Origin: Runella sp. SP2
GTDB lineage: Bacteria > Bacteroidota > Bacteroidia > Cytophagales > Spirosomataceae
NCBI RefSeq assembly: GCF_003711225.1
Contig: NZ_CP031030.1
Location: 992,001-1,056,000, forward strand
DNA: 64,000 bases
Reading direction: 5' to 3'
Positions 10,803 to 39,170 of the stretch are shown in pieces. The first letter of the stretch is position 1; the number at the start of each line of letters is the position of its first letter. Under the pieces are notes generated by a model that saw nothing but the letters and a program-made list of their open reading frames with translations, was not told the DNA's origin and did no database searches. The position numbers were made by a program, and so were the translations under genes.

Positions 10803-10822
10803 CTTACTTTCATTTTTTTTGG
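10803..10822 (+). promoter_or_regulatory. Recurrent phage motif, copy 1
   Basis: CTTACTTTCATTTTTTTTGG lies 64 bp before the exported-protein gene at 10886. It is one of five copies of CTTAYTTTCMTT followed by T and GG (also at 11233, 21771, 25753, 39154). The others lie 27-35 bp before an ATG. Candidate phage late promoter element. Confidence 0.5.
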
Positions 10823-10885
10823 TGGCATGAAGTCCTATTCTTGTGCTCACAATTAGTTTACTGTTTATCACCAAAATTATTATTA

Positions 10886-11155
10886 ATGAAAGCATTCGCT
10901 GTGATTTTGCTGGTGTTGACACCTTTGGTGTTCACATTGGCAGCGGCACATACCTACGATGCTACAGTAGTCCAAGAAACCAAGTCCGATTGTGTGATTC
11001 CTACTTTCGAATTTGAGTACAAGGGCGTGACCTATTGCCCATTGGACGTTTGTCCTTTGGCCCCTGATACGGTCGGTACTTTAGCTACGCACGATGGGTT
11101 TGTGACGGTCGAAGAAAAACCGCCTATTTTGGGAGTAGGTAAGGAATTAGCATAA
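10886..11155 (+). CDS. Small exported protein, unknown
   Basis: 89 aa from the ATG at 10886. Earlier in-frame starts would place the signal peptide in the middle of the protein. MKAFAVILLVLTPLVFTLAAA is a typical signal peptide or N-terminal anchor, probably cut after AAA. The mature part contains three cysteines (DCVIP, CPLDVCPL) that could form a disulfide in the periplasm. It is a single-gene unit followed by a strong terminator. A role in superinfection exclusion is possible but not shown. Confidence 0.6.
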   Translation: MKAFAVILLVLTPLVFTLAAAHTYDATVVQETKSDCVIPTFEFEYKGVTYCPLDVCPLAPDTVGTLATHDGFVTVEEKPPILGVGKELA

Positions 11156-11185
11156 ACTTTTACGTTTCATGGGACGCATGAACAC

Positions 11186-11213
11186 AATAGGCAGGTCATT
11201 GACCTGCCTATTT
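11186..11213 (+). terminator. Strong hairpin terminator
   Basis: AATAGGCAGGTCA and TGACCTGCCTATT form a perfect 13-bp inverted repeat with almost no spacer, then TTGCGTTTA. It lies 30 bp after the exported-protein gene and before the head-gene promoter motif. Confidence 0.75.
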
Positions 11214-11232
11214 GCGTTTAGGGTGTGGCACA

Positions 11233-11251
11233 CTTATTTTCATTTTTTTGG
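11233..11251 (+). promoter_or_regulatory. Recurrent phage motif, copy 2 (head operon)
   Basis: CTTATTTTCATTTTTTTGG ends 26 bp before the S49 protease ATG and directly follows a terminator. That is the arrangement expected of a promoter for the head operon. Confidence 0.55.
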
Positions 11252-11256
11252 TGAGC

Positions 11257-11277
11257 GGTGCAATGTAATGTTGCACC
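11257..11277 (+). promoter_or_regulatory. Leader hairpin touching a start codon
   Basis: GGTGCAA and TTGCACC (7 bp) enclose the 7-nt loop TGTAATG, and the next base is the ATG of the protease gene (11278). It should affect ribosome access. The loop resembles that of the hairpin at 5011-5032 (AGTAATGC). Confidence 0.5.
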
Positions 11278-12558
11278 ATGCAAACCAGTAAAGCCTTTTC
11301 TAATATCATTCCTGAGCTGCTTGGCAGTGGTTGGTTGGTGCCTCAAACACTTGAAACCAACGTTGCTGAGTATATACAGCAGCTCAAAGAACCCGAACCC
11401 AAGACTTTCGAGAAAATCGAAAAGCTTTGGGCAGATTATGAGGATGATGATGAAACCGAAGAAGTAACCCAAACACTTCTCGAAGGTGAATCAATCTGGT
11501 TGATTGACCTAGATTCAGTCATGTGGCGTAGCGGTTATTCACGCGGATACGGAGCTGCTTACTACGCAGACACGCTCGACCAGGCGTATGCCGACCCAAC
11601 TTGCAAGGGGGTATTGATTCGTTGTGGGGCCTGCTACGGAGGCGAACGCCGAGCTTCCTACATGGTGGCTGATGCAATCAAACGCCGCAACAAACCCGTA
11701 GGCGCCTACCTTGATTATGGTACTGCATACAGTGGGCATTACCTGGCTATTTGTGAGACAGACTTTATTCTTTGTTCCAACGAAACCGACTCAGTGGGGG
11801 GCATTGGTGCCTATATCCGTTTTGAAAATTGGGACGGAGCATACAAGGCAATGGGTGCCACGGTTGAAGAAATCTACGCCGATGCCAGCCCCGACAAAAA
11901 CAAATCCACCAGAGAGGCCAAAAAAGGCAATTATAAACTTCTGAAGGAAGAAGCGCAGACCATCGCGCTTGAGTTTCGTCAACGCGTTATCGACGCACGT
12001 GGCGAGAAACTTACCAATGACATTGTGCTCCTTGGGGGCGCATTTGAAGCAAAACAGGCCCTTGAATATGGCCTAATCGACGGCATTGGCCGTTTGGATA
12101 CGGCTTTCAGCCGCGTTCTCAATCTTTCTGCCAATTATACCAAACCCCAAAATACTATGTTCGGATTTTTGAAACTGCCGAAGCTGCAAGCCTTGTGCAA
12201 CGTAGCGGCGGCTGATATTACTGAAGCTCAGCTCAATGAAGCAGTAAGCGAGCTGCAAGGAGCAAACTTGGGTGGCCTAGTTGATCTGCTCCAATCGTTT
12301 GGACAGCAACAAACTGCCACCACCAACGTAAAGGACAGCGCAGAATACAAAGCGTTGCAGTCACAGCTCACTGCAGAGCAGCTCAAAACTGGCCAGCTTC
12401 AGGAAAAATTGAGCGGCTACGAAAAGCCTGGTGATGAGCCAACCAAACCCTTCAAAAAAGAGGAAAAAATCGAAAACTCGGGGGGAGATCCTGAGGCTCA
12501 TTTGAGCGAAGCCGACATTGAAATGCGCAAAATCTGGGCTAGTCTTAAAGGCAAGTAA
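11278..12558 (+). CDS. S49/SppA-like prohead protease with scaffold-like tail
   Basis: 426 aa. Residues about 60-270 form a crotonase/ClpP-fold S49 peptidase domain: GVLIRCGACYGGERRASYM, then GTAYSGHYLAICETD with the nucleophile Ser expected in YSGHY, then SVGGIGAY and a lysine-rich helix (DKNKSTREAKKG) where the SppA base is expected. Residues about 300-426 are Ala/Gln/Glu-rich with a coiled coil (ALQSQLTAEQLKTGQLQEKL), typical of a scaffold fused to a capsid protease. It acts on the prohead and lies directly before the capsid gene. The start is the ATG following the hairpin. Confidence 0.85.
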   Translation: MQTSKAFSNIIPELLGSGWLVPQTLETNVAEYIQQLKEPEPKTFEKIEKLWADYEDDDETEEVTQTLLEGESIWLIDLDSVMWRSGYSRGYGAAYYADTLDQAYADPTCKGVLIRCGACYGGERRASYMVADAIKRRNKPVGAYLDYGTAYSGHYLAICETDFILCSNETDSVGGIGAYIRFENWDGAYKAMGATVEEIYADASPDKNKSTREAKKGNYKLLKEEAQTIALEFRQRVIDARGEKLTNDIVLLGGAFEAKQALEYGLIDGIGRLDTAFSRVLNLSANYTKPQNTMFGFLKLPKLQALCNVAAADITEAQLNEAVSELQGANLGGLVDLLQSFGQQQTATTNVKDSAEYKALQSQLTAEQLKTGQLQEKLSGYEKPGDEPTKPFKKEEKIENSGGDPEAHLSEADIEMRKIWASLKGK

Positions 12559-12604
12559 CAGATTGAAAATTAACAGCCAAAAAACTTAAACCCACCTTTT
12601 TAAA

Positions 12605-13684
12605 ATGTTAACTAACGTTCAGGCGATTCAGAATTATCAGGGGCAATATACCCCTAAAATCCTGAAGACGCTGTACAACTCAATTTCGATAACGAGTACA
12701 CCTGGTATTCGCACAGTATCGAACCTAACGGTCGATAAAATGCTGTGGGGCTATACCGCCCTCAATGGGTTGCAACCCAACAACCCCAACATCGAAGACA
12801 CTGACTTGAAAGATGGTAGCCTTATCTTACGTAGCATTTCGCCGCGTAAGGCAATGAAAATCTTGAAAGTCAACTCGGAAGAGTTTGCGGATACTTTTCT
12901 CTACGAAGGCCAAAAGGATTTGACGCGTGATCATCCGCCGTTGTTTGCGGAAGAATATTGGCGCAACCAAATGCAGAAAGTTGGCGAAGAAGTCGAAGTA
13001 AACGCCTTTTACATGAAGGACAAATCTGTGGCTACTACTTTCAACGCAGGTGCCAGCTATTCCGTTGGTGATGTAGTGGTATTTGGTCCTTTAGAACAGT
13101 ACTACAAGTGTACTGCTGCAACAACGGCGGCACAATCTCCCACCACGCACCCAGCCAAATGGCAATGGGCCTCTAACCAATACATCTGCGATGGATGGGG
13201 AACTGTGTTGAAGAAAGAAATTGGCCTAAGTACCATTACACCAGTGGTGACCGGTGCAATCACCAACGCCAACGCCCTGGATAAAATTGATGGCGTAATG
13301 TGGGCGGCAGTGCCTGAGTTATGGCGTCAAAAAGGTGTTAAATTCTACATGTCGAACGACGTGTACGAAAAACGCCAAAAGCACCTACGCGCTAAGAAAG
13401 ATGCAGGCGCCTTCTACACCGAGGGTGACTTAGCCACGTCGAAAGAATACATCATCGACTCTGGTCGCCGCGGTCAGATTGTACCTGTGAACTGGTTAGG
13501 AACGTCGCAACGCGTAATAGTTACTTTGGACAACAACATGGTGATGGGTACCAACTCATTAGACAGCATGGGCGTTTGGGGTAATCGTGTTGACACATTG
13601 CACGGATTCAAGACCATCATGAAGTTCACGTTGGCGTTTGAATTTGACGATTTGCGCTATTTGCTTGTAAACGATCAAGAATAA
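12605..13684 (+). CDS. Major capsid protein with an inserted carbohydrate-binding-like module
   Basis: 359 aa, directly after the protease/scaffold gene. The overall layout fits HK97-fold capsid proteins of Bacteroidota phages: an N-terminal arm, then an acidic/aromatic core, ending with a strand-rich segment (NRVDTLHGFKTIMKFTLAFE). Residues about 140-190 read like an inserted ChtBD3/CBM5-type module: YSVGDVVVFGPLEQYYKC, then SPTTHPAKWQWAS, with the GDxV, YYKC and terminal Trp pattern. Such a module could decorate the capsid surface. The capsid assignment comes from position, size and composition; the module is inferred from motif resemblance. Confidence 0.78.
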   Translation: MLTNVQAIQNYQGQYTPKILKTLYNSISITSTPGIRTVSNLTVDKMLWGYTALNGLQPNNPNIEDTDLKDGSLILRSISPRKAMKILKVNSEEFADTFLYEGQKDLTRDHPPLFAEEYWRNQMQKVGEEVEVNAFYMKDKSVATTFNAGASYSVGDVVVFGPLEQYYKCTAATTAAQSPTTHPAKWQWASNQYICDGWGTVLKKEIGLSTITPVVTGAITNANALDKIDGVMWAAVPELWRQKGVKFYMSNDVYEKRQKHLRAKKDAGAFYTEGDLATSKEYIIDSGRRGQIVPVNWLGTSQRVIVTLDNNMVMGTNSLDSMGVWGNRVDTLHGFKTIMKFTLAFEFDDLRYLLVNDQE

Positions 13685-13740
13685 GAAAACCCACCTAAAA
13701 GGGGTGGCGGCTACGTGCCAAAGCCCCTACTACTATACAC

Positions 13741-14055
13741 ATGGAAGGACAGAACACAGCGGCCACGGCAACTGACGAAAAAGACAAGAAGATTGTCGAA
13801 CTCTCTCAGGAGCTTGAAGCCAAAGACAAAATTATTGCCAGCTTAGAGGCTGAAATCACTCAATTGAAGAGTGAAAAAGGAGCTGCACCCAAAGCGCCAA
13901 CGGTGAAAGTAGCGAAAAAGACCTATATGGTGTCGATTCCTCGCTTCAACTTTAAAGGAAAAGTTTATACTTCAGCTGATGTCGTTAACGACCAAAAGTT
14001 GGCGGATGAACTTGTGAAAGAAGATTCGGGGGTGTTAGTCGAAGTAACGAATTAA
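13741..14055 (+). CDS. Coiled-coil head-associated protein, unknown
   Basis: 104 aa. Residues about 15-45 are a heptad coiled coil (IVELSQELEAKDKIIASLEA), and the C-terminal 50 residues form a small basic beta domain (KKTYMVSIPRFNFKGKVY). It lies between the capsid gene and a structural gene, so it is probably a head or connector accessory factor. No named family was recognised. Confidence 0.6.
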   Translation: MEGQNTAATATDEKDKKIVELSQELEAKDKIIASLEAEITQLKSEKGAAPKAPTVKVAKKTYMVSIPRFNFKGKVYTSADVVNDQKLADELVKEDSGVLVEVTN

Positions 14056-14058
14056 GCC

Positions 14059-14598
14059 ATGGCACAGTATAAAAACCTAATTCCAAATTGGGGTGATGAG
14101 AGCTCTAACATGGGTGGGATTGCCCAAATTGGCTATTTTATGCCAGTTGGTGAAATCCAAACTTGGTCGGCACCAGTAGCTAACGCCACTGGGGAGAACA
14201 AGTTTGTTCATAGTCAGGCTTTTGTTCCGAAAACGGGCGGCGGATTTTCGAAATTCTACACCACTCCAGAAGTGGGGGAACTCGATTTGGCCGCTTTGGG
14301 TGGCCGTGACGCGGGGGGATGGGATGGCTCAGTGAAAATCTTCGTGCCAGGCAACACGAAAGAGCTTAACTATTTGGCGAACGTGTGTCGCTCGGATGCG
14401 TTTGTGGCGCTGATTCCTGATAATGATGGAACTCTTAATCAGTTGGGCGATCCTGGTCATTACGTGGCCATCAAGCTCGACTACAAAACTGGCCCCATCA
14501 CGACGGAGCACGGGCGCGGGTACAATGGTGAGCTGATGGTGAAGCAGCCTTTTAAATTGTTGTACACTGGGGCAATCCCCCTAAAACCAGCTGAGTAA
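14059..14598 (+). CDS. Probable virion structural protein (head decoration or tail tube)
   Basis: 179 aa, Gly-, Asn- and aromatic-rich with little charge (MGGIAQIGYFMPVGEIQTWS, LAALGGRDAGGWDGSV), as in tail-tube or head-decoration proteins. It sits in the head operon, 3 bp after the coiled-coil gene. A tail-tube role is attractive because no other major tail protein was recognised, but the choice is open. Confidence 0.5.
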   Translation: MAQYKNLIPNWGDESSNMGGIAQIGYFMPVGEIQTWSAPVANATGENKFVHSQAFVPKTGGGFSKFYTTPEVGELDLAALGGRDAGGWDGSVKIFVPGNTKELNYLANVCRSDAFVALIPDNDGTLNQLGDPGHYVAIKLDYKTGPITTEHGRGYNGELMVKQPFKLLYTGAIPLKPAE

Positions 14599-14600
14599 TA

Positions 14601-14756
14601 ATGGCTACTGAACAAGAAAAGCTTAAAGAGGTAGAGAAAAAGGTACCTAAGCAGCTGTTTATTTTTCAAGGTGTTGAGTATGACCTTAGCAACCTGACCA
14701 AACAGCAAAAGGAGTATCTCGCAAAATTCCCTGACGAAGTGCCCTACATTAAGTAA
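14601..14756 (+). CDS. Small head-operon protein
   Basis: 51 aa (MATEQEKLKEVEKKVPKQLF...), helical and charged at the start, then YDLSNLTKQQKEYL. It starts 2 bp after the preceding stop and is the last gene before a terminator. No family was recognised. Confidence 0.6.
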   Translation: MATEQEKLKEVEKKVPKQLFIFQGVEYDLSNLTKQQKEYLAKFPDEVPYIK

Positions 14757-14773
14757 TCCTAACCCTACCTATC

Positions 14774-14808
14774 AAAAGCCGATTGTGTCTGACAGGTCGG
14801 CTTTTTTT
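14774..14808 (+). terminator. Rho-independent terminator of the head operon
   Basis: AAAGCCGA and TCGGCTTT form the stem and are followed by a T-run. It lies 18 bp after the last head-operon gene and just before the packaging block. Confidence 0.85.
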
Positions 14809-14816
14809 ACAACAGC

Positions 14817-15419
14817 ATGAAAGCAATCGAAGAAATCGAAAGATGGTTCGAGACTGAAATCTATTACGAAGGGGTGCAGCTCTACCAAAAGTATGGTACC
14901 AACGATTATCTGAAGAAGTTCTTCAACGACGGTACCGAGCGCCATCGGCGGGCATTGCTCAGTACTGAGCTAAAGGAGCTGCTTGAGCAGCTTCAGCTGG
15001 AAGCTCAGCAGAAGGCGGAAGCTCGACCCAGTGAGCTACAGCTGCTATTACGCGAAGCTGGTAGCTTGATGGATGAGCGCACCGCATTGAAGGAAAGAGC
15101 ACGTCAGCTGATTGAGCGAAAACTGGACACCCCTCAGGAGCTTGGAGAAATTGTACTGGAAATTATGCAGCGCATTACCCCACGCCTGGACGAAATATTT
15201 GGCCTTCGTGATTTCTACGAAGCCAACGGTTATTTGCCCGAGACAGCTGCCCTTGCCGTACAATCTATTAGCGACCTGTACACTCGACGCAATACGCTCC
15301 GAACCTACCTGAGTCGTACAGCGGTGAAAGGCAGCGCAAAGCGCCAATTGTGGCTCAATGAGTTGTTTGCCATCGAACAAAAACTGAAAGGACTGAAAGA
15401 TGCTATTTCGAACGAGTGA
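14817..15419 (+). CDS. Helical phage protein, unknown
   Basis: 200 aa, almost entirely helical, Glu/Leu/Arg-rich (LLSTELKELLEQLQLEAQQK, LKERARQLIERKLDTPQELG). It overlaps the following PLD-like gene by 20 bp, which places it in the packaging operon. No family was recognised; a terminase accessory role is a positional guess. Confidence 0.6.
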   Translation: MKAIEEIERWFETEIYYEGVQLYQKYGTNDYLKKFFNDGTERHRRALLSTELKELLEQLQLEAQQKAEARPSELQLLLREAGSLMDERTALKERARQLIERKLDTPQELGEIVLEIMQRITPRLDEIFGLRDFYEANGYLPETAALAVQSISDLYTRRNTLRTYLSRTAVKGSAKRQLWLNELFAIEQKLKGLKDAISNE

Positions 15420-15978
15420 TATTGCTGTCAATCTTACTGAGCGCTCATCGCCAGTCACTGCCGAAACGTTTGTGGAGAGCTTTGTCAAGTGCAAAGTGAA
15501 GGATGCACTTGCTGAGTGTTTCCCTTCGCTTGAGCAAGGCAAAAGCTACGATTTCGTGAGCTTGAGTGAGTGGAGCACCCATGAGCTGGTATTTCACCTA
15601 CTCAGTTTGATTGGCCCTGCAAGCTTGTACGTGGCGACGTGGAGCATGAGCGAAACGCCCGCGCGGATGTTGGTGGAAGCGTTGCAAGTAGGAGTTATAC
15701 GCGAGCTGCATTGCCTGTTTGATTATCGTATTAAGGTACGTTATCCGGGTGTGCACGATTACGTACAACAGCATTTTACGAGTGTGGGCATTGGCAACTC
15801 CCACGCAAAAGTAACTGTGCTTATTAACGACAGCTGGGCAATACATATCGTAGGATCCTCAAACTATACCAACAATCCACGCATCGAGGCGGGGGTATTG
15901 TCGGCAGGCAGGGCAGTCAGTGAGCTGCACCGTGAGTGGATTATGGCAGAGCTGAAGGGTGAGAAACCGTTTGAATAA
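15400..15978 (+). CDS. PLD-like protein with a single degenerate HKD motif
   Basis: 192 aa. The C-terminal half contains SHAKVTVLINDSWAIHIVGS followed by SNYTNNPRIEAGVL, which matches the phospholipase D/nuclease superfamily pattern (HxK, Asp, GSSN, Glu). The Asp is at +9 from the His rather than the usual +7, so activity is uncertain. The N-terminal half (FHLLSLIGPASLYVATWSMS) fits the parallel beta-alpha repeat before the motif. One HKD motif implies a dimeric enzyme, as in Nuc. The stop and next ATG overlap (TAATGA). Its place beside the terminase genes suggests DNA handling. Confidence 0.7.
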   Translation: MLFRTSDIAVNLTERSSPVTAETFVESFVKCKVKDALAECFPSLEQGKSYDFVSLSEWSTHELVFHLLSLIGPASLYVATWSMSETPARMLVEALQVGVIRELHCLFDYRIKVRYPGVHDYVQQHFTSVGIGNSHAKVTVLINDSWAIHIVGSSNYTNNPRIEAGVLSAGRAVSELHREWIMAELKGEKPFE

Positions 15979-16253
15979 TGAAACTATCACAAGAAATATT
16001 GGAGCAGGTACAAGACCTTGCAGGCAGATACATGACGCCCCGGGCCATTGCCATCATCATCGGCGTGGATGAAGACGATTTTCGGGATGAATTGGAGGAC
16101 GAAGATTCTCAGGTATATAAGCATTTCTACAGGGGCTTGTACATGACCGAAGCTGAGCTTCAGGGCGCAATCATCAGGCTTGCTAAGCAAGGGTCAAGCC
16201 CTGCACAGGCGCTCGCGCTCAAGCTACAGCAGGACGCCAAAACATCAATGTAA
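15978..16253 (+). CDS. Small phage protein with terminase-small-like helix-turn-helix
   Basis: 91 aa. LAGRYMTPRAIAIIIGVDED resembles the HTH of small terminase subunits and homeodomain-like phage proteins, followed by YRGLYMTEAELQGAIIRLAK and SPAQALALKLQQD, a pattern also seen in small terminases. It is coupled on both sides by TAATGA. It may be the DNA-recognition part of the terminase. Confidence 0.55.
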   Translation: MKLSQEILEQVQDLAGRYMTPRAIAIIIGVDEDDFRDELEDEDSQVYKHFYRGLYMTEAELQGAIIRLAKQGSSPAQALALKLQQDAKTSM

Positions 16254-16873
16254 TGAACTTATCGAAATTACAACAGTCTGAGGAGTTTCTTGCCCTGCGC
16301 AGAGCTGCGCAGGACGAGAACTATCCTATACCTTCTCACCTAGAATTAACTGCCTTGGTGGTGAGTGCAGCGCTTGAAATTTTGAGCGACCGTAAATGTC
16401 GCTATTGGGAAGACCATAAGATTATCAAGAGAATAGCTGATTCAAGCTATGGGGAACAAATGTCAACCACCAAAATTCGACATTGCGTTCAAATAGCGAA
16501 AATGCTTACTGTCTATCTCAATCCCCTTAATGTCGAGCTGGAGAAAATCAGGCTCATTCACAGCATTAAGGACAATGCTCAAAAGGCAGCCACCGCCAAC
16601 ACAGTAAAGGACAGGGACGTGATGGCGCGTGAACACAGCAATCTCATCAAGATTATTGGGGTGGATAAGCCAACCGATTCGGGTGGTGGTTCGACGCTTG
16701 TTATTAATATTTTCAACTTCGACCCAACGCTCATCGGCGCTCAAAAACGCCCTAACCTGTTGGCCGACATTGCCCTTGAGCTAAAGAAAATAGATGCTGA
16801 GCAACAAGAGCAAATTGAGGATTTCGAGGTATTGAAAAAAGAATTGGAGGACGATGAGTATGGTGTCGAATGA
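16253..16873 (+). CDS. Phage packaging-region protein, possible second small-terminase component
   Basis: 206 aa, helical N-terminus, a Gly-rich strand-forming segment (SGGGSTLVINIFNFDP), and an acidic C-terminal tail (EQIEDFEVLKKELEDDE). It overlaps the large terminase gene by 20 bp. Position and the acidic tail fit a terminase partner. No sequence family was recognised. Confidence 0.55.
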   Translation: MNLSKLQQSEEFLALRRAAQDENYPIPSHLELTALVVSAALEILSDRKCRYWEDHKIIKRIADSSYGEQMSTTKIRHCVQIAKMLTVYLNPLNVELEKIRLIHSIKDNAQKAATANTVKDRDVMAREHSNLIKIIGVDKPTDSGGGSTLVINIFNFDPTLIGAQKRPNLLADIALELKKIDAEQQEQIEDFEVLKKELEDDEYGVE

Positions 16874-18590: not shown

Positions 18591-18698
18591 TAGGGGTACA
18601 TCAAACGTATCTATGCTCAAAGTTTATTGTTTTTATAAGGTCTTATGTAGTAAGGGAGTGCGGGTACAATGATTTGTTTGGTTGTGTGTGCTGATTTG

Positions 18699-18838: not shown

Positions 18839-18853
18839 GGTTGATTTATAGGG

Positions 18854-19863: not shown

Positions 19864-19867
19864 AGCC

Positions 19868-21770: not shown

Positions 21771-21790
21771 CTTACTTTCCTTTTTTAAGG
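21771..21790 (+). promoter_or_regulatory. Recurrent phage motif, copy 3 (portal operon)
   Basis: CTTACTTTCCTTTTTTAAGG ends 34 bp before the ATG at 21825, restarting rightward transcription after the minus-strand cargo genes. It matches the other copies over CTTAYTTTCMTTTTTT. Confidence 0.55.
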
Positions 21791-21824
21791 GCATTTTTTT
21801 CTGCCATTTTGCCCCCAAAAAAAG

Positions 21825-22085
21825 ATGGTTAAGTGGGCTGATGTATTAGCGATTATGGAACAAAAAATGGCTTCAGGGAAACCCAAGCCTTTTGACGTTT
21901 CGTGGCTGTCGTACGACAAAAACCGCAAAACGCAGGGCGAAAAAAAAGAGCTACGCAATGCTGTTTTGGTGGGCATACGGCAGAGACACCGAATTGTAAA
22001 TGTTTCCCCTTACGGACTTCCAAACCAAGTGATTCCTATCCACTGGGACTTAATCCTTTGGATCAACGATAAACCTGCTTCATAA
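21825..22085 (+). CDS. Small phage protein preceding the portal, unknown
   Basis: 86 aa (MVKWADVLAIMEQKMASGKP...), basic, with an alpha/beta look. Its stop overlaps the portal start (TAATGA). It may be a connector or head-completion factor; no family was recognised. Confidence 0.6.
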   Translation: MVKWADVLAIMEQKMASGKPKPFDVSWLSYDKNRKTQGEKKELRNAVLVGIRQRHRIVNVSPYGLPNQVIPIHWDLILWINDKPAS

Positions 22086-25752: not shown

Positions 25753-25771
25753 CTTATTTTCCTTTTTTGGG
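25753..25771 (+). promoter_or_regulatory. Recurrent phage motif, copy 4 (tail operon)
   Basis: CTTATTTTCCTTTTTTGGG ends 26 bp before the ATG at 25798. The leader after it shares TAAGCCT with the leader after copy 5 (39154). Candidate promoter of the tail/fibre operon. Confidence 0.55.
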
Positions 25772-25797
25772 CGGCGAGTAAGCCTCAATTTCGGGGC

Positions 25798-27318
25798 ATG
25801 ATTACAGTAGCGGTATCCCCTCCCACACTTGGGCTTACAAAAGACCCCTTGGTCTATGCCTTCCAGTCTGACGACTACAAGGGAGCAGTGGGCGCTATTG
25901 CAATTAATAGATTATACTTCTCTGGCCCGATAGTCTCGGGCACAGTTGTACAGCTCCTTTGGAATGGGGTAGTTACTACTCTAACAGCCGCTTTGCTACC
26001 CCTTCCAAACGGTACACAATTTAAGTCGGGAGCTGGGGGCAGCAATGCCTATGCCAACCTGGTACTTCCTTATTTTCAGGGCAACGCCACTATCTCAAAA
26101 GACTTCAATGTGACAGTAGAAAATGGAGCCCTGATTTTCACAGCTAAGACCAAAGGAAAGGCGTATAACATCACTCCATTAGCTGTGCCTGGCGTGTGGG
26201 GCGTGCAGAATACCACCCAAGGTGCCGACGAAATCAACAGAGAGAATCACTGCATCAATTTGCAGTTGTTTTTAGAGCGCGTTTCTGGAATTGGCCAGGA
26301 TAAGATCTACGAGGTATATCTGCCTACCGACGAAAATGGTAAGGCGGAAATCGACCTCGCGGATGTGCTTAATTCTAAGTTGCAACCACTGATTGAGCAA
26401 CCCTTTTGGACGGGCTCGACGCACAAAATTTCGAGAGCGACCAGCCGAAAATACCAAGTTACGGTATCGGAAGCCTATGGGCGCCCGCTCAAAAACGGCC
26501 TTATATCAGTACTGGCAGAGCAACGCGCCATGTGGGGCGGCTCTGGGTATAATCAGCAGGATAGCGTAGGGGGAAGAATGTGGGCATCTGGTAAAATGAA
26601 AGCCTTGCGAAATGGGCCTGCCTTACGCTACATCATGAAAGATGAACCTCAGTGGCTCACCTTCGTATGCCTAGATGCGTACATTATGGACGTGCTGTAT
26701 AAGATGGATGTTTTGTGGGATGACAACAGCACTGGTACCTACACGATAGCCCCACTAAATCAGGTCAATAATGGTGAGAAAATCATCTTGCCTGCGGGCT
26801 TTACGCAGCTGAACGTAAATAGCTACAGTACTGGCAAAAAGGCGAAGCAATACACGCTGTATCTCAAAGCTGGCGCAACGGAAAAGAGCTTGCGGTACAC
26901 CTACGTAATTGACACTAACCTACGCGATAAGCGCAAATATTTTGCGTATATCAACTCGCTTGGCGCATGGGATACCTTGAAAGTCAACGGTATTGAGGAA
27001 CGAACGGTCGAGATTAAAACTCGCAGCGCCTCGAAGCGATTGGCATACCCTCAGGTACAGGGGGATAGCGAACAATCGGACTACTATGTAAGCTATGATC
27101 AGCTGTTTTCGTGTACGACTTCGTGGTTGTCGAGAGATGAGCAAAAGAACATTAGGGATTTTTTTGTAAGCCCACTCAAATACAGATACTTCAATGGGAG
27201 CATATTCCCTGTGTCCGTTACCAGTACGAAACTCTCTGAACAAGACGACGACGAAACCATGCTCTTCTACCAGTTTGAGTACAAATTTTCATTCACCAAC
27301 GACGCCTTTGTACAATGA
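25798..27318 (+). CDS. Large tail-region structural protein, unknown
   Basis: 506 aa, beta-rich with few charges (PIVSGTVVQLLWNGVVTTLT, KSGAGGSNAYANLVLPYFQG). The C-terminal part (DEQKNIRDFFVSPLKYRYF, EYKFSFTNDAF) reads like the end of baseplate or distal-tail proteins. It opens the tail operon. It is not a tail sheath by any motif I can see. No named family is assigned. Confidence 0.55.
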   Translation: MITVAVSPPTLGLTKDPLVYAFQSDDYKGAVGAIAINRLYFSGPIVSGTVVQLLWNGVVTTLTAALLPLPNGTQFKSGAGGSNAYANLVLPYFQGNATISKDFNVTVENGALIFTAKTKGKAYNITPLAVPGVWGVQNTTQGADEINRENHCINLQLFLERVSGIGQDKIYEVYLPTDENGKAEIDLADVLNSKLQPLIEQPFWTGSTHKISRATSRKYQVTVSEAYGRPLKNGLISVLAEQRAMWGGSGYNQQDSVGGRMWASGKMKALRNGPALRYIMKDEPQWLTFVCLDAYIMDVLYKMDVLWDDNSTGTYTIAPLNQVNNGEKIILPAGFTQLNVNSYSTGKKAKQYTLYLKAGATEKSLRYTYVIDTNLRDKRKYFAYINSLGAWDTLKVNGIEERTVEIKTRSASKRLAYPQVQGDSEQSDYYVSYDQLFSCTTSWLSRDEQKNIRDFFVSPLKYRYFNGSIFPVSVTSTKLSEQDDDETMLFYQFEYKFSFTNDAFVQ

Positions 27319-32082: not shown

Positions 32083-32110
32083 AAGACAAATATTTTTCAA
32101 TAATAACAAA

Positions 32111-32641: not shown

Positions 32642-33672
32642 TGCCAACCACTGTAAAACCACCCTGCGGGCCTTGTGGTCCGCAGTGGTACATTCACAAA
32701 ATTGAGCACCAAACGGGTAGTACTTATACTGTTACGTTTGACGCGCTTAATGTTACGCGAATAGTCTATGACGTTGTTCGAGATTGTGACACGCTATCTA
32801 GCGGGCAACATGACCCTTCAAGCTCAACTTTTGATATTGATTTAATCGGAGTTTCTGACGGGAAAGCCTTCTTTATCGCCAGTTGCCCAAATTGCACAGG
32901 CTTCTGTCAGCCTTTTGAGTTTGAGATTAGTCATAACGGCACACTTACACCCGCCGTTCCAGTTTTACGCGCTGTGATTTCGGGCAACAACGTGCTAGTA
33001 TTTTGGGATTTTGAGGGCGGCGTGGACGCGTTTGAGTTACAGACAAGCCGAGACGGGGAAACTTGGACGGACGTAACAGTAGGCATGTCGGCGAATATTC
33101 GACAGCTTAAAACAGGCCCGTGGCTAGACGTAGGAGAACTAACGTTTCGTATGCGAGCACGCAAAGGTGCTACGTATTCTGAATGGAGCGAGATTATTAC
33201 GCCTTTCGTGGGTGCTACCCAGCCCGATGTTGTTACGCCAAGCCCTGGTAATGTGCCGTTCAGTACAGTGCGAACCGACATGATTAATATCGTGCAAGAC
33301 TCTGGTACAGGGTTGTGGTATGATACTGTATCGCCCACCAGCGGCGACTATAATGCTTTCTACTACATCAATGGGCGCCCGCTCAAGTCGCCCACTGGTG
33401 ACAGACTGCCGTTTCAGGGAATGGCCTTTGAAAGTGGATTTGTTTCGGTGGAAAAAATCTACTTGCATAAAGACCACTATTCAAACTGGCAACAGTGGGA
33501 AAATTATTTTTGGAGGACAAAAGAAGCTAAGGAGCAAATCTTAATAAACGGAAATTGGGTAGATAGTACTCCGCAGCTAAAAGAACAGAACCCACAAAAT
33601 AATACTAGAATAATATACCCAAACGATTGGTGGGTATTGGCTTCTAGCCAACAGCGTCTTGTAATTCCTTAA
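32641..33672 (+). CDS. Tail protein with fibronectin type III-like domain
   Basis: 343 aa. The N-terminus has a Cys-rich loop (PPCGPCGPQW). Residues about 100-190 form a fibronectin-III/Ig-like domain (NNVLVFWDFEGGVDAFELQT, TFRMRARKGATYSEWSE). The C-terminal part is aromatic and polar, as in receptor-binding tips. It is probably part of the tail tip or fibre. Confidence 0.6.
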   Translation: MPTTVKPPCGPCGPQWYIHKIEHQTGSTYTVTFDALNVTRIVYDVVRDCDTLSSGQHDPSSSTFDIDLIGVSDGKAFFIASCPNCTGFCQPFEFEISHNGTLTPAVPVLRAVISGNNVLVFWDFEGGVDAFELQTSRDGETWTDVTVGMSANIRQLKTGPWLDVGELTFRMRARKGATYSEWSEIITPFVGATQPDVVTPSPGNVPFSTVRTDMINIVQDSGTGLWYDTVSPTSGDYNAFYYINGRPLKSPTGDRLPFQGMAFESGFVSVEKIYLHKDHYSNWQQWENYFWRTKEAKEQILINGNWVDSTPQLKEQNPQNNTRIIYPNDWWVLASSQQRLVIP

Positions 33673-33683
33673 CTATTAGAAAG

Positions 33684-35132
33684 ATGATTGTAGAAAAATT
33701 AAACCTACCGAGCTGGTTTCGTGCAGATTACATCTCGCACATAGACGAAGCTCCGATCGTGGGAAATGTGGGGAAAATTGCCGCCCTTCATTCGGTTGAT
33801 GCCGATATTTTGGATGCGCAAAAATTTGAGCGCGGTTTCTCCCATGTGCCCAAAATATGGGATAGTGGGACAAACGATGATAAAAAGTGCTTTGTATTAT
33901 TATCTGACGTTTTCCCTGGAACTGGACACAGCGACGCACAGATTAATGCCGCCGCCGCAAACGTGGCCGCGAACATTTCCAAATACGCCTGTATTGGTGA
34001 TCAATTCACCGAGGCGGGTTCAAATCCAGTACCTTGGTACGATGGAAGTTACTGGACGGTAGGAAAAAAATTCTACCAAAAATTGTGCGAAGAAGTGGGC
34101 GCTAGTGGGGCTGCCGACACAAATTTCTTTTGCAATTACGACACCAAGCTGGCCAATTTTTGTGAGTTTTTTCGCATAAATGGTGCGCGTAACCCCTTGC
34201 ACCCCTACATAGTTAATGCACTCGCAAGCGAAGCGGGCGCACGCAAAAAAGGGGATAACGATAACTCAAACGACCCTTATTACACCTCTGGAATGTCGGA
34301 CTGGACGAACATGTTCACCATGATGTTGTGGGCGAATGATGGTGAAACAAAAGACTGGCTATTCAACGCCATCTTTGAGACTCAGCGGAAATATGCCGCA
34401 AAGGCTGACGCAAAAACGGTAATGTACACGTCGCCGTGGGCGCAAAGCCTAAGCAACCCCGTAAACGAGCATCATAAAAATCCTGGGCACATTCACCCCC
34501 GCGAAGGCGGATATTGGAAAGTGCCAGACTGGCATACTCCTCCCTTTGAATTTCAGCTTTGGGTGGGATTTTTTGGTTGCCTTCTGACAGAAGGATGCTA
34601 CAACTGGGACTCTACCGTAAACTTCTCGAAATCGGTAGCAAACGACCGAGAAAACGAATGGACGCCCCCGCGCACGTGGGTAAGCGAAGGAGGTGCGGCG
34701 CCGACGCTGCTTCCAGATGGCGAGCCGCGCTACCCACAATTTCCGCGCGCAGGTATGGACGCCATGATGGTGGGGGTACATTGGTACAACAGCATTAAGC
34801 ACATCGTTAATGCCAGTACTGGCGTAGCGTATGCTACCTACATCGCAGATGGGCAAACGATAGCGCCGCAGGCTGGCGACCCCCGACTTTTTCGGCGTGG
34901 CTTTCGGAATTATGGACAAGACACTATCCTGCACCTAGCAGCTGCATCGCAAGGGGTAGCGCTAGAGGCCATCGGCGCAGGTGAAACATTACTGGTCTAT
35001 GTGAACCCTTACCGGTTGTTGACAGAAAAGGAGAATGTGTCGATAGTAACTAATGGAAAGACTATCGACCTTGGTCAACTAGCAGGATCAAAGCTTTATG
35101 TTTTTAGAGTTAAAAACGGAATCATACAATAA
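33684..35132 (+). CDS. Virion-associated protein, glycosidase-like in appearance
   Basis: 482 aa, rich in Trp, Asn, Asp and His. Segments such as SKYACIGDQFTEAG, CEFFRINGARNPLHPYIVNA, WTNMFTMMLWANDGETKDWL, and PHIHP-like HIHPREGGYW recall TIM-barrel glycoside hydrolases or esterase-like host-surface enzymes. The C-terminal 80 residues look like a beta-sandwich (GETLLVYVNPYRLL). No catalytic pair can be named with confidence. Placed among fibre genes, it may act as a depolymerase, which is an inference. Confidence 0.45.
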   Translation: MIVEKLNLPSWFRADYISHIDEAPIVGNVGKIAALHSVDADILDAQKFERGFSHVPKIWDSGTNDDKKCFVLLSDVFPGTGHSDAQINAAAANVAANISKYACIGDQFTEAGSNPVPWYDGSYWTVGKKFYQKLCEEVGASGAADTNFFCNYDTKLANFCEFFRINGARNPLHPYIVNALASEAGARKKGDNDNSNDPYYTSGMSDWTNMFTMMLWANDGETKDWLFNAIFETQRKYAAKADAKTVMYTSPWAQSLSNPVNEHHKNPGHIHPREGGYWKVPDWHTPPFEFQLWVGFFGCLLTEGCYNWDSTVNFSKSVANDRENEWTPPRTWVSEGGAAPTLLPDGEPRYPQFPRAGMDAMMVGVHWYNSIKHIVNASTGVAYATYIADGQTIAPQAGDPRLFRRGFRNYGQDTILHLAAASQGVALEAIGAGETLLVYVNPYRLLTEKENVSIVTNGKTIDLGQLAGSKLYVFRVKNGIIQ

Positions 35133-35134
35133 CC

Positions 35135-35413
35135 ATGGAAGCACTGGAAACATTTGTCGAAGGTGCATACGTGCGGCTATCATTTGATGTTGCGGGGCTT
35201 ACGGTAGGTACATCTTTGCAAGGGAAATTGCTCTTTAAAGGGCAAACTTATCAGCTTTTTAACGAGCTCAATGGCACTATTCTAAGCATGAGTAGTGCCA
35301 CCAATACCCTAGTATCAGGTACGTATAAGTTTGTGCTACTTTGGTACAACCAAGATACGAATGAACCCTTTGAAGAAGAAGAGTACGAGATCATTATAAA
35401 GCCTCGAAAATGA
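35135..35413 (+). CDS. Small beta-sandwich tail protein
   Basis: 92 aa, beta-rich (YVRLSFDVAGLTVGTSLQGK, YKFVLLWYNQDTNEPFEEEE), consistent with an Ig-like accessory domain of the fibre complex. It starts 2 bp after the previous gene and overlaps the next by 4 bp. Confidence 0.55.
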   Translation: MEALETFVEGAYVRLSFDVAGLTVGTSLQGKLLFKGQTYQLFNELNGTILSMSSATNTLVSGTYKFVLLWYNQDTNEPFEEEEYEIIIKPRK

Positions 35414-35619
35414 TTCCAGCAACGTATTTGCCTAGACCAAAATTTAAGCTCAAACGCTCGACCGGTAACCTAATTTCCTGCGAGCTGGAGCAAAGGCCCT
35501 CAATCCATTTGAGCGCCTCGAAAACTATTGTAGTTATCAATAATAACGGAGATACAAATGCCGATGATGACACTCTTAGTTTGAATTTGCTCCTCTTATA
35601 TGAGGTTTCAAAAATCTGA
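35410..35619 (+). CDS. Small tail-region protein, unknown
   Basis: 69 aa, coupled by ATGA. Strand-rich (KTIVVINNNGDTNADDDTLS). No family was recognised. Confidence 0.5.
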   Translation: MIPATYLPRPKFKLKRSTGNLISCELEQRPSIHLSASKTIVVINNNGDTNADDDTLSLNLLLLYEVSKI

Positions 35620-35644
35620 TTTTTCAATTCAATAACTTACAGAC

Positions 35645-36133
35645 ATGACATTACAAGAAAGATTATCGGCGCTAATCACTGCAATTGGAACAGACATAAA
35701 AGCTTTGTTTACTCGTGCACTGCCTACTGGTGGAACTACTGGGCAAGCACTACGAAAAAGCTCAAACAGTGATTTTGCGGTAGAATGGTACACCCCAAGT
35801 GTGGGAGTACAAATTGACGATGCTACTGCTAGTGGGACAAAAACGTATTCATCGACCAAAATTGAATCAGTCGCAACGGCTGCAGCTAATGCCGCAAAAA
35901 ATGAAATTCTAAACGGTGCGGGAGCAGCTTACGATACATTGTCAGAACTACAAGCATTACTTGAAGGCCAAGGTAGTTCGGTAACGGCATTGACAACAGC
36001 AATCAATAATCGTGTGCGATTTGATGCCGCACAAACTCTTACGACTCAACAAATTACTCAGGCTTGTTCCAACTTGGGGCTTGGGGAGCCCGATACAAAC
36101 TTAGTTTCATTATATACAACTGCTAAGGCATAA
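35645..36133 (+). CDS. Fibre-attachment protein with conserved N-terminal anchor, long form
   Basis: 162 aa. Residues 1-50 (MTLQERLSALITAIGTDIKA, GGTTGQALRKSSNSDF) are closely similar to the start of the next gene, so this is a shared virion-attachment module. The rest is helical/coiled (IESVATAAANAAKNEILNG, ATNLVS-like end), as in phage neck or fibre connectors. It ends at a TAATG overlap with its paralogue. Confidence 0.65.
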   Translation: MTLQERLSALITAIGTDIKALFTRALPTGGTTGQALRKSSNSDFAVEWYTPSVGVQIDDATASGTKTYSSTKIESVATAAANAAKNEILNGAGAAYDTLSELQALLEGQGSSVTALTTAINNRVRFDAAQTLTTQQITQACSNLGLGEPDTNLVSLYTTAKA

Positions 36134-36342
36134 TGACACTTCAAGAACGTATATCTGCCCTTATAACTGCCATCGGCACGGACGTGAAAGCACTTTTTAT
36201 GCGCTCAATGCCTGCGGGTGGAAGTACAGGGCAGGTACTTACAAAAACATCGAATAGCGATTATTCAACCAGTTGGCAAACACCAACTGGAGCAAGTCAA
36301 TCAGATATACAGCGTATCGAAGCACAAAACTGGTTCCTATAA
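36133..36342 (+). CDS. Fibre-attachment protein, short paralogue
   Basis: 69 aa consisting almost only of the anchor module (MTLQERISALITAIGTDVKA, GGSTGQVLTKTSNSDYSTSW), followed by a short tail. It overlaps the next gene by TAATG. It may be a truncated copy of the upstream gene or the adaptor for the lectin-like protein that follows. Confidence 0.6.
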   Translation: MTLQERISALITAIGTDVKALFMRSMPAGGSTGQVLTKTSNSDYSTSWQTPTGASQSDIQRIEAQNWFL

Positions 36343-37304
36343 TGAAACGTGGTAGTAATTATAATAATGGGTTTTTGGGCGGAAAGGGAAGCAATTACCT
36401 TACAGTAGATAGCCCTGGTATTCTTTCTGTAGAGAAGCATTATTACGCAGGCGCAAAATACCTGCTTGATAATATCTCTAATACAAGCCTTGTTAATGCT
36501 GCGTCTTATCGTCGATTACGCGGTGCTTACACGGGAAATATCGCACAAATGAGAAGGAGTACCGACAGTTCGGTACTCGACATTGGAAGCAATGGCGAAC
36601 ACTTCGATGTGTCAACCATGAACACTTTCATCGGTTCGGTAACAGGATATACGCGTATTCTATACTCTCAAGCGGGATTAGGATCTTCGTACGATTTTGT
36701 GCAAGGCACCAACACAAAGCAGCCTATTGTGAGGCTCTCTGGTACTAATTATACGATGGGGGGGCGAGTCTGCATGATGGGTGTTCCTGGTAACGACACT
36801 GGACTAGCAACAAGCAATATAGCCAACCTAATAACTGGTACTGATTTCACTTGCATTATGGTCGCGAGTGTTGGAGCGCATAATAATTATGCCCGTTTTT
36901 TTTCTAGTCAAAGCGCAGGGGGAAGTAACGACTACGGTACTGGCGGGTGCTCTATTACGCAGGCAGCAACTAACAATACTATTGCATTTACGGGAGGGAC
37001 AAACAACTATTGTTATCCGAATGGAGTAAGTGGTGGAGTGTCTGGAAATGTGGTATTTACCGTTTTTACTGACTCTGCGGGTGCTACTGTACGCGTTAAC
37101 GGGGCAATGCAACGAACGGATGCCTTCGTCACCAATCATAACTCGTATGCGCTCGGAATTATGAATCAAGTCGCGTCGGGTGGGGGTGCAGCGCTCAACC
37201 AGCTTGTAGCGGAAGTGATTGTTTATAAGCGAAAATTAACACTCGCAGAAGTGCAATATGTAGAGAGAAATATGGGTGCGTATTGGGGAATCGCAGTCGC
37301 CTAA
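36342..37304 (+). CDS. Lectin-like (LamG/concanavalin-fold) receptor-binding protein
   Basis: 320 aa from the ATG at 36342, which overlaps the previous stop. A long Gly/Asn/Ser-rich beta domain ends in AEVIVYKRKLTLAEVQYVER followed by AYWG, a common C-terminal signature of LamG/concanavalin-type jelly rolls in Bacteroidota. Such domains bind surface glycans. With the anchor gene just upstream it is a good candidate for the phage receptor-binding protein. Confidence 0.6.
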   Translation: MKRGSNYNNGFLGGKGSNYLTVDSPGILSVEKHYYAGAKYLLDNISNTSLVNAASYRRLRGAYTGNIAQMRRSTDSSVLDIGSNGEHFDVSTMNTFIGSVTGYTRILYSQAGLGSSYDFVQGTNTKQPIVRLSGTNYTMGGRVCMMGVPGNDTGLATSNIANLITGTDFTCIMVASVGAHNNYARFFSSQSAGGSNDYGTGGCSITQAATNNTIAFTGGTNNYCYPNGVSGGVSGNVVFTVFTDSAGATVRVNGAMQRTDAFVTNHNSYALGIMNQVASGGGAALNQLVAEVIVYKRKLTLAEVQYVERNMGAYWGIAVA

Positions 37305-37317
37305 AACAAGAAAAAAA

Positions 37318-37644
37318 ATGCCAAATAGCTATAAATCTATTGCAAAAAAACTGGATGTTAATACAACAGTATCTGCCTATACGGTACCTAGTGCTACCAC
37401 GGCAATCCTTAATCTTGTGACGTTTGCCAACATAGACGCATCGAATAGCGATTCGATAGAACTATCTTATCGAAAGTCAGGCGACGCCAGCGATACCTTT
37501 TTAAACAAAGGTGCCACTGTTCCAAGCGCTACGACTTTTCGTTTCGACGGCCCAATAGTTTTAAACGTGGGGGATATTCTAAAAGTCAAAGCTGCTACTG
37601 CCAACAGAATAGATGTAACTATTCACCTAATGGAAATTACCTAA
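37318..37644 (+). CDS. Small beta-rich tail protein
   Basis: 108 aa from the ATG at 37318, after an A8 leader; an earlier in-frame start overlaps the previous gene. Strand-rich (STVSAYTVPS-like start, ILNLVTFANIDASNSDSIEL, GDILKVKAATANRIDVTIHL). It resembles small phage proteins that complete a fibre or virion surface. No named family. Confidence 0.55.
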   Translation: MPNSYKSIAKKLDVNTTVSAYTVPSATTAILNLVTFANIDASNSDSIELSYRKSGDASDTFLNKGATVPSATTFRFDGPIVLNVGDILKVKAATANRIDVTIHLMEIT

Positions 37645-37645
37645 C

Positions 37646-38104
37646 ATGAATACAGCCGTGAACAAACCCTTAGAACACACCTTTGAATTTGGCCTGGCAT
37701 TGACAGCCACGCTACTCCAAATTAACATGCAACAGTTGTTTGACTGGCATGCAGTTCCCCTTAAACTAGCCATTCTATCTGGCTCCATTACCTACGTTAT
37801 GAAAGCTAAGAAGGATGAAAAAATGTCCTTCAAAGAGGCGTGTTTTACAGCGCTAAGTGGGTTTACGTTCGGGATTTATATTGCGCCTTTTGTGGTTGAT
37901 TTATATGCAATTACCAAGCCCGCTTCGAGCATGGGAGTACACTACCTTACTGGAGCATTTGGCCAGTGGATCCTAAACGTAGGTTGGGCCATTCTGAAAG
38001 GGGCGCACAAAGAAGGATGGTCTGCCATTCGCGACCGATTCTTTCCATCGAGAAAAAAACGCAACAACAACAGCTACGACGAAAACGAATATCCTAACCA
38101 ATGA
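37646..38104 (+). CDS. Putative holin (multi-span membrane protein)
   Basis: 152 aa with several hydrophobic stretches: FGLALTATLLQINM, VPLKLAILSGSITYV, ALSGFTFGIYIAPFVVDLYA, GAFGQWILNVGWAIL. A highly charged, hydrophilic C-terminal tail follows (FFPSRKKRNNNSYDENEYPN). This topology and its position directly before the amidase (ATGA overlap) fit a holin that opens the inner membrane for the endolysin. Confidence 0.65.
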   Translation: MNTAVNKPLEHTFEFGLALTATLLQINMQQLFDWHAVPLKLAILSGSITYVMKAKKDEKMSFKEACFTALSGFTFGIYIAPFVVDLYAITKPASSMGVHYLTGAFGQWILNVGWAILKGAHKEGWSAIRDRFFPSRKKRNNNSYDENEYPNQ

Positions 38105-38649
38105 TTTATCTTTTAGCAGGCCATACCGTCATTGCGGGACGCGGGACGGGGGCATTTGGCATCGATGGCTTCGATGAAGCCGTGGAAGCTGTGCGTCTTA
38201 GAGACGACGTAACAGCAGCTTTGCGCGCACGTGGCGTGAAGGTCGTAAACGAGGTCAACACATCGCCACTGGCTCAGGTAGTGGCCTGGTTGAAATCGAT
38301 CGTGAAAAAGGAAGACAAGGTGATTGAAATCCACTTTAACATGGGGCCGCCGACCGCCACTGGTACTGAAGTGTATATCGACGATACGCCTACTCAGGAA
38401 GAACGCTTCTTTGCCCAGGCTGTGGCTCGAACCATCGCCAACACTTTGGGGATTCGGCTCAGAGGGGTCCAAGGCGTAAAACGTGAATCTGAAAGCCAGC
38501 ATAAAAGCCTGGCCATCATTTCGGTGCCATCGTCGGCCATCAACATCTTGATTGAAGTGATGTTTGGTAGCAATCAAAACGACGTGGAACTGTACCGACG
38601 CAATTATCCACGCCTTGTTCAAGCTTTAGCCGACACTATTGCGCCATGA
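38101..38649 (+). CDS. N-acetylmuramoyl-L-alanine amidase (Amidase_3), endolysin
   Basis: 182 aa. Zinc-amidase signatures in order: LLAGHTVIAGRGTGAFG (first His), DEAVEAVRLRDDV (Glu), KVIEIHFNMG (second His), TGTEVYIDD, then SQHKSLAIIS and INILIEVMFGSNQND with the catalytic Glu. It cleaves the bond between muramic acid and L-alanine in peptidoglycan. It has no signal peptide, so release through the holin is expected. It is coupled to both neighbours by 4-bp overlaps. Confidence 0.88.
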   Translation: MIYLLAGHTVIAGRGTGAFGIDGFDEAVEAVRLRDDVTAALRARGVKVVNEVNTSPLAQVVAWLKSIVKKEDKVIEIHFNMGPPTATGTEVYIDDTPTQEERFFAQAVARTIANTLGIRLRGVQGVKRESESQHKSLAIISVPSSAINILIEVMFGSNQNDVELYRRNYPRLVQALADTIAP

Positions 38650-38921
38650 GACCAATCCACAAAATCGTCCTTGGCGTGGCCTTGGTTGTGCTCTCCATCA
38701 GCATGGTTATGCTCGCCTATAATACCTACGAACCGAAACCCGAACCCGTAAACCTGCAGAAAATCAATGAAACGATTAAAAAACAAAGTGACAGTGTGGC
38801 TGTGGCTTCTCGTAGCTATAGCGATACTACAAAACTGCGTAAGCTTGAAGCCCTCAAACGCCGAATTGCAGAAGCGCAGTACAACGATAGCGTCGCGCGC
38901 GTCTCAGATCAGCGACGCTGA
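38646..38921 (+). CDS. Probable inner-membrane spanin (Rz-like)
   Basis: 91 aa. An N-terminal membrane helix (IVLGVALVVLSISMVMLAYN) is followed by a charged, coiled-coil periplasmic domain (LRKLEALKRRIAEAQYND). This topology, the position right after the endolysin, and a second membrane protein encoded out of frame inside its 3' end match the Rz/Rz1 layout. Spanins fuse the inner and outer membranes at the end of lysis. Confidence 0.65.
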   Translation: MRPIHKIVLGVALVVLSISMVMLAYNTYEPKPEPVNLQKINETIKKQSDSVAVASRSYSDTTKLRKLEALKRRIAEAQYNDSVARVSDQRR

Positions 38922-39108
38922 TGCTGCCGTAATCTGTTACGATATGCTCACCAACTGCGAGAAAAGCCTAGCCGATACCACCGCCAAGCTGCACCAAGTA
39001 CAGGCAGGAATACCCGACGTGAAAAAAAATGCCCGTAACAAGGGTATTTACCTGGGCGCTGGTGGCATGAGCCTACTAACGATGTTACTACTACTTTTTG
39101 CGAACTGA
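38767..39108 (+). CDS. Overlapping membrane/lipoprotein-like partner (Rz1-like candidate)
   Basis: 113 aa, overlapping the previous gene by 155 bp in another frame. The N-terminus (VWLWLLVAIAILQNC) resembles a lipoprotein signal, with Cys24 as the possible lipidation site, although LQNC is a poor lipobox. A helical middle (CEKSLADTTAKLHQVQAG) is followed by a C-terminal hydrophobic segment (GAGGMSLLTMLLLLFA). The second hydrophobic end is not typical of Rz1. It could also be a second holin or anti-holin. The gene ends at a terminator. Confidence 0.55.
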   Translation: MKRLKNKVTVWLWLLVAIAILQNCVSLKPSNAELQKRSTTIASRASQISDADAAVICYDMLTNCEKSLADTTAKLHQVQAGIPDVKKNARNKGIYLGAGGMSLLTMLLLLFAN

Positions 39109-39124
39109 GAGATAACAATGCAGC

Positions 39125-39153
39125 AAACCCACCTTTAGCTTAGAGGTGGGTTT
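39125..39153 (+). terminator. Terminator of the fibre/lysis operon
   Basis: AAACCCACCT and AGGTGGGTTT form a perfect 10-bp stem, 16 bp after the last lysis gene. The next recurrent motif begins directly after it. Confidence 0.85.
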
Positions 39154-39170
39154 CTTATTTTCATTGCAGG
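39154..39170 (+). promoter_or_regulatory. Recurrent phage motif, copy 5 (tape-measure operon)
   Basis: CTTATTTTCATTGCAGG ends 28 bp before the ATG at 39199 and directly follows a terminator. The T-tract is interrupted by GCA compared with the other copies. The leader shares TAAGCCT with copy 4. Confidence 0.5.

Follow-up and report, generated by a model that had tools for sequence, protein, structure and literature searches.

A recurrent motif, CTTAYTTTCMTTTTTT, stands before transcription units of a prophage of a Bacteroidota host, within a 64,000-nucleotide window of Runella sp. SP2 (contig NZ_CP031030.1, positions 992,001 to 1,056,000 of the forward strand; coordinates below are those of this window). 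Judged from its sequence context, the motif is very probably one of the two parts of a late promoter, the upstream one; the other part is a degenerate version of the host -7 box. The small early gene at 9827–10318 (gene 9827; other genes are likewise named by their first position) encodes the most likely reader of this box. For the explanation as a whole, a late-promoter upstream box read most likely by the gene 9827 product, we estimate a probability of about 0.7. The features are collected in Table 1.

The upstream box and the -7-like box in the prophage

Exact matches to the motif are present at 10803, 11233, 21771 and 25753, all on the plus strand. The initial annotation counted a fifth site at 39154, which shares only the first 12 motif bases (CTTATTTTCATTGCAGG), has no T-run and is absent from the matches found with three mismatches. 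It had also proposed a search for the motif across phage and host genome. In the 7.6 Mb of the host, 16 matches are found with at most one mismatch, and the exact ones are the four prophage copies only. With up to three mismatches the window contains 14 matches versus a mean of 6.8 in shuffled sequences, indicating that only the exact copies stand out.

A box resembling the host -7 element TAnnTTTG is located at bases 34–41 of the exact copies, 33 bases past the start of each. It matches 5, 5, 4 and 4 of the six specified bases in copies 1 to 4, and 3 of six at the 39154 site. All four exact copies thus reach at least four of the six bases at the same offset, a level reached at 4.8% of prophage positions. 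The earlier statement that the motif does not fit the TAnnTTTG/TTTG promoter of the phylum is correct for the motif itself, but this downstream box had been missed. Complete host-type promoters (TTTG-N17-23-TAnnTTTG) are found in the prophage zero times on the plus strand and once on the minus strand, compared with two in a backward control. The degenerate -7 box downstream of each exact copy suggests that the host sigma factor probably takes part.

Measured from the first motif C, the ATG is 45 nucleotides (nt) away for 11233, 25753 and 39154, 54 nt for 21771 and 83 nt for 10803 (ATG at 10886). Counted from the base preceding 'TC' in the motif, it is 39 nt for the ATGs at 11278, 25798 and 39199, 48 nt for 21825 and 77 nt for 10886. 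The spacing of the family pattern described below, with the box about 39 nt before the ATG, is therefore found at the first three genes, and leaders are predicted at the last two. The -7 box of sigma-A promoters in Flavobacterium psychrophilum occupies positions -12 to -5 (PMC9723704). Placing the phage box likewise puts the predicted start on the A of the ATG in units 2 and 4; unit 5 would also start on its A (39199), which is placed less surely. Leaders of about 9 nt in the portal unit and 38 nt in unit 1 would follow from the same placement. With the ATG at the predicted start in three units (11278, 25798 and 39199), leaderless mRNAs are predicted.

The same element in related phages

The initial annotation suggested looking for the motif before the same operons in related phages, and counterparts are indeed present there. 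Phage V3770 (IMG/VR), whose capsid and terminase are 93–96% identical to those of the prophage, carries the exact motif at the four equivalent places; the fetched piece stops before the fifth site. In more distant prophages, homologous genes are often preceded by other repeated boxes at the same place, among which GTCCTTT is the counterpart of the window motif. The comparison used 94 non-redundant loci (terminase DNA less than 90% identical), or 89 once five window-like phages were left out. In the 94 loci the two-box pattern gives 120 matches on the late strand and 27 on the other, versus 44 in a reversed control covering both strands. On the late strand of the 89 loci, an ATG-initiated open reading frame (ORF) begins 38–40 nt after GTCCTTT in 93 of 222 cases, versus 0 of 118 on the other strand; a TTTG-type box follows it at +31 in 98 of 222 versus 2 of 118. 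The counts at +30 and +31 overlap, TTTTG being counted twice, and only the +31 count is used.

In 50 phages, 99 GTCC sites have TTT(T/C)G at +30 (85 sites) or +31 (14 sites). The 85 sites with the main spacing yield TGTCCTTT-N21-A-N-TTT(T/C)G, and the bases that had not been selected for are strongly biased, with T at +4 to +6 in 92, 78 and 87% and A at +28 in 92%. The 14 sites at +31 are much weaker and show little beyond the demanded bases. The first ATG-initiated ORF starts 8–9 nt past the TTT start in 58 of the 99 sites, and the consensus before homologous genes in related phages reads TGTCCTTT-N21-AnTTTTG-N4-ATG. Both in the window and in the relatives with Asn at residue 144 of the gene 9827 protein, the first box base is T, not the G of the family. 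The window box, TTTC(C/A)TTT, is thus a variant of the family element.

The element also occurs in a cultured phage, Polaribacter phage Leef_1, where GTCCTTTT precedes six genes (511, 1878, 2515, 10572, 30708 and 34630); the word 'promoter' does not appear in the available portion of the main text of the Leef_1 paper (PMC8776804). Clade-own boxes (GGGTGTCGCGG, GTTTGTCAG and TGTCGTTT) occupy the same place in Spirosoma-type (G050, G030, G348), Arsenicibacter (G041a) and Pedobacter (L126, L127) loci. When information content is anchored on homology-placed ATGs of the four unit-first genes, the signal is weak. The pattern [AT]TT[TC]G at -16 to -3 is found at 29 of 120 unit-first genes versus 19 of 254 inner genes, distributed as 18 of 30 homologs of gene 25798, 6 of 19 of gene 21825, 4 of 51 of gene 11278 and 1 of 20 of gene 39199. 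Probably many of these starts are misplaced, or the genes are not first in their unit in distant phages.

Host genomes and the neighbouring prophage

The pattern is not enriched in hosts and is not a host element. In the genome of the host itself, GTCCTTT-N23/24-TTTTG is found 6 times versus 13 when read backwards. The longer pattern has 25 matches in 24 of 395 genomes of the phylum versus about 62 backwards (a tally by eye).

A second related prophage adjoins the window at its 5' side in the opposite orientation (host contig C1, about 952905–992904; loci L092 and L093). It shares several tail-region genes, homologous to window genes between 27315 and 39108. In this prophage, GTCCTAT and GTCCGAT precede the homologs of genes 11278 and 25798, and a scan that demanded GTCC adds GTCCGAA at one further start. 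Since this neighbour carries GTCC boxes in the same host, the choice of box seems to be set by the phage and not by the host. The switch seems common to related phages of several Bacteroidota groups, and its reader seems to be a phage protein, not the host alone.

Gene 9827 as the candidate reader

In the window, gene 9827 directly precedes the late region. Searched with an iterated profile, 78 of 121 loci contain a member of its family. Where at least 9.5 kb of upstream sequence is available, the family is present in 54 of 71 non-redundant loci; eight of the 17 misses were extended upstream and all eight contain it (weakest E-value 4e-6), raising the count to 62 of 71, with the other nine not extended. 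In most loci the terminase gene follows it at a distance of 6–10 kb. When 33 relatives were searched together by iteration, 13 gave a homolog of gene 9827, and none of the other early genes preceding it turned up in more than four; many of the 33 pieces stop short of the early region. Gene 10318 is broader, with homologs in 33 of 33 relatives, several of which have a late-type promoter before it.

Searches of Pfam, PHROG, PDB sequences and PDB folds give no significant match for the family. The library searches made reveal no relation to known activators; they did not set the protein directly against MotA, C or Ogr. The AlphaFold2 models of two family members (mean predicted local distance difference test score 84) match no solved structure, and among viral models the fold search matches only the Leef_1 protein. 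Taken on its own, the assignment of the gene 9827 product as reader of the box, which is drawn from conservation and position, stands at even odds.

Genes 10318–10794 and 14059–14598 apparently form one family, since a profile built on the former also picks up relatives' homologs of the latter.

Residue 144 and the first base of the box

In 78 aligned family proteins (near-copies included), the column of window residue 144 contains 67 Arg, 10 Asn and 1 Glu. Arg is found where the boxes start with GTC, and Asn where they start with TTC. Where a homologous start has a -7 box, TC is preceded in Asn phages by T in 9 cases and by G in none (3 without TC), and in Arg phages by G in 33 and by T in 1 (14 without TC). 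This count drops 62 printed rows without a -7 box, and it skips phages to which no class is assigned and genes that lack an ATG close to the expected position. When all starts are included the data are too noisy (Asn, T 11 and G 5; Arg, G 88 and T 31), and the other strand is about even. A single change accounts for the Asn phages on the regulator tree, whereas the terminase tree requires two and the portal tree one that is weakly supported; the tree tool warned of long branches for the Asn phages G004 and G036. As a single change on the regulator tree explains it, the match represents about one evolutionary event and is a hint only.

Proposed mechanism and comparison with known systems

In the proposed mechanism, the early genes would be transcribed and the gene 9827 product would build up. 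This protein would then bind the box, which spans roughly -45 to -27 relative to the predicted start and stands where a host promoter has its -33 element, and would direct the host RNA polymerase to the degenerate -7 box, which would be weak alone. Transcription would begin about 5 nt past the -7 box, which is the A of the ATG at 11278, 25798 and 39199, and would yield leaderless mRNAs of the presumed late genes. More broadly, and at somewhat less than even odds, a large group of temperate Bacteroidota phages may use one late switch, comprising a new family of small activators (gene 9827), a GTCCTTT-type box replacing the host -33 contact, leaderless mRNAs, and Arg or Asn at residue 144 helping to set specificity.

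This arrangement resembles the middle promoters of phage T4 (MotA box, AsiA), in which a phage activator box stands in place of the -35 element and the host -10 element is kept. The present case differs in phylum, in box and in the predicted leaderless late mRNAs, and its candidate reader matches no solved structure. In P2, the small phage protein Ogr (or delta) activates several late operons at conserved upstream sites, which is similar to what is proposed here. The Ogr protein contains a zinc finger and its site is a dyad near -55, whereas the site here is near -39 and no dyad is evident. Late promoters of phage Mu, as described in the available part of PMC4461284, combine non-consensus host elements with a common site for the activator C at or upstream of -35. 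Several late promoters of this composition are also proposed here, but box and geometry differ and gene 9827 has no match to a solved structure.

The sigma-A promoters of Bacteroidota have the form TAnnTTTG/TTTG (available parts of PMC7366714 and PMC9723704), and the -7-like box of the phage element resembles theirs in type and in its predicted position at -12 to -5. The phage element differs in that its -7 box is degenerate, the -33 TTTG is replaced by GTCCTTT or variants, and the ATG is often at the predicted start. In hosts, short leaders are rare: in the same studies, 3.7% of the 5' untranslated regions of B. thetaiotaomicron are shorter than 10 nt, and a figure of 5.5% in F. psychrophilum is taken to mean leaderless transcripts (PMC7366714, PMC9723704). 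Leaderless late mRNAs, if true, would thus be unusual for this phylum. Our search of the open literature found neither an earlier description of this promoter element nor any report on how temperate Bacteroidota phages transcribe their late genes. A single promoter pattern of fixed geometry would make late operons and start codons predictable across these phages; it would also yield a candidate master late gene and an inducible promoter system outside Proteobacteria.

Alternative explanations

Several observations weigh against the promoter and its proposed reader. The 39154 site is weak, with a 3/6 -7 box and no T-run, and overlaps the tail of a terminator; copy 1 overlaps a weak 6-pair hairpin (10792–10806) reported by the terminator scan. 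The boxes were first seen in loci later used for counting, and the two-box pattern was written after that view. A simple per-phage box finder returns nothing in 36 of 94 loci, and some of its groups, including that of the window, are due to chance. At homology-placed starts, 62 of 122 printed rows have no -7 box. In G004, G143, G128 and G354, gene 9827 is separated by about 15–16 kb from the terminase gene that follows it, and in G011 it is located 27 kb downstream of that gene. No DNA-binding fold is detected for its product by the searches above, and the Arg/Asn-to-G/T match is a single event on the regulator tree. Five IMG/VR loci (L165, L169, L170, L174 and L177) contain the gene 9827 family and show no shared box in a simple search; they may have different late promoters.

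It is possible, if rather doubtful, that the late promoter element is read by another phage product, such as an unrecognised sigma factor, an RNA polymerase-binding protein or another activator, and that gene 9827 is otherwise employed. The lack of a significant database match and the distant location of gene 9827 from the late operons in the five relatives leave room for this, and association with late operons is no proof of function. However, of the early genes tested, gene 9827 is the only widely kept one standing before the first late genes, and in those early proteins that were scanned with Pfam no sigma-factor domain appears. A host factor or an alternative host sigma factor as reader would agree with the host-like character of the -7 box and with the recurrence of GTCCTTT in phages whose hosts belong to several classes. 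Such a reader is improbable given that the two prophages in the present host differ in box, as do two in Runella zeae, and that neither the own genome nor the 395 phylum genomes are enriched in the pattern.

The initial annotation also considered a transcript-borne antitermination signal and placed two sites directly after a terminator. A terminator-like hairpin does end at 39153, immediately 5' of the 39154 site, and another hairpin (GGCAGGTCATTGACCTGCC) can be read from the sequence 5' of 11233, although it is missing from the output of the terminator scan for that region. These hairpins, together with the proximity of the box to start codons, would suit an antitermination or translation signal in the transcript. 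Such a role is quite improbable, because transcription is predicted to start downstream of the motif and, in relatives, both the -7 box and the ATG follow it at rigid distances; moreover, the other copies do not share the inverted repeats seen at copy 2 and at the 39154 site. Chance, or T-rich composition around terminators, could account for the near-chance window count at three mismatches and for the overlap of the 39154 site with a terminator tail. It is very improbable as a general explanation, as exact copies are found nowhere else in 7.6 Mb and relatives retain the element at their homologous starts. The other initial proposal, a phage-specific late promoter used with a phage activator, fits best, with the amendment that the element is not private to this phage and is carried by related ones.

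Features of the prophage

Table 1 Proposed promoter elements and associated genes of the prophage
Feature	Position	Strand	Remarks
Candidate late regulator, 163 amino acids	9827..10318	+	Residue 144 is Asn, in predicted helix 135–147
Upstream box copy 1, CTTACTTTCATTTTTTTTGG	10803..10822	+	Exact match; kept in V3770
-7-like box TATTCTTG	10836..10843	+	5/6; predicted start near 10848
Small ORF of unit 1	10886..11155	+	ATG at 10886
Upstream box copy 2, CTTATTTTCATTTTTTTGG	11233..11251	+	Exact match; kept in V3770
-7-like box TAATGTTG	11266..11273	+	5/6; predicted start at A of ATG 11278
S49-type head maturation protease, first of unit 2	11278..12558	+	PHROG 53, E 3.5e-23; Pfam Peptidase_S49
Upstream box copy 3, CTTACTTTCCTTTTTT	21771..21786	+	Exact match; kept in V3770
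-7-like box CCATTTTG	21804..21811	+	4/6; predicted start near 21816, leader about 9 nt
86-amino-acid gene, first of portal unit	21825..22085	+	Homologs stand before portal gene in relatives
Upstream box copy 4, CTTATTTTCCTTTTTTGG	25753..25770	+	Exact match; kept in V3770
-7-like box CAATTTCG	25786..25793	+	4/6; predicted start at A of ATG 25798; equivalent box before homologs
First gene of unit 4	25798..27318	+	No database match; tail region by position
Partial upstream box, CTTATTTTCATT	39154..39165	+	Abuts terminator-like hairpin; 45 nt to ATG
Weak -7-like box AAAATTGC	39187..39194	+	3/6; weakest of five
First gene of unit 5	39199..41241	+	Homologs in relatives

In the PHROG search, the head protease and the tape measure protein of the prophage are recognisable, and the portal gene is recognised through the annotated portal of Leef_1. 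The capsid and terminase have no family match, and their names are putative, read from position and sequence. Residues 146–187 of the probable major capsid protein (12605–13684) resemble the carbohydrate-binding module CBM_5_12 with an E-value of 5e-4, a match below the Pfam cut-off. Copy 1 was considered as the driver of a non-coding RNA, which was dropped once the small ORF from 10886 was read. Two same-genus relatives are G009 and G004. The Rfam scan lists two tRNAs and nothing else; a tRNA-Met gene (4835–4907) is located inside the early region of the prophage.

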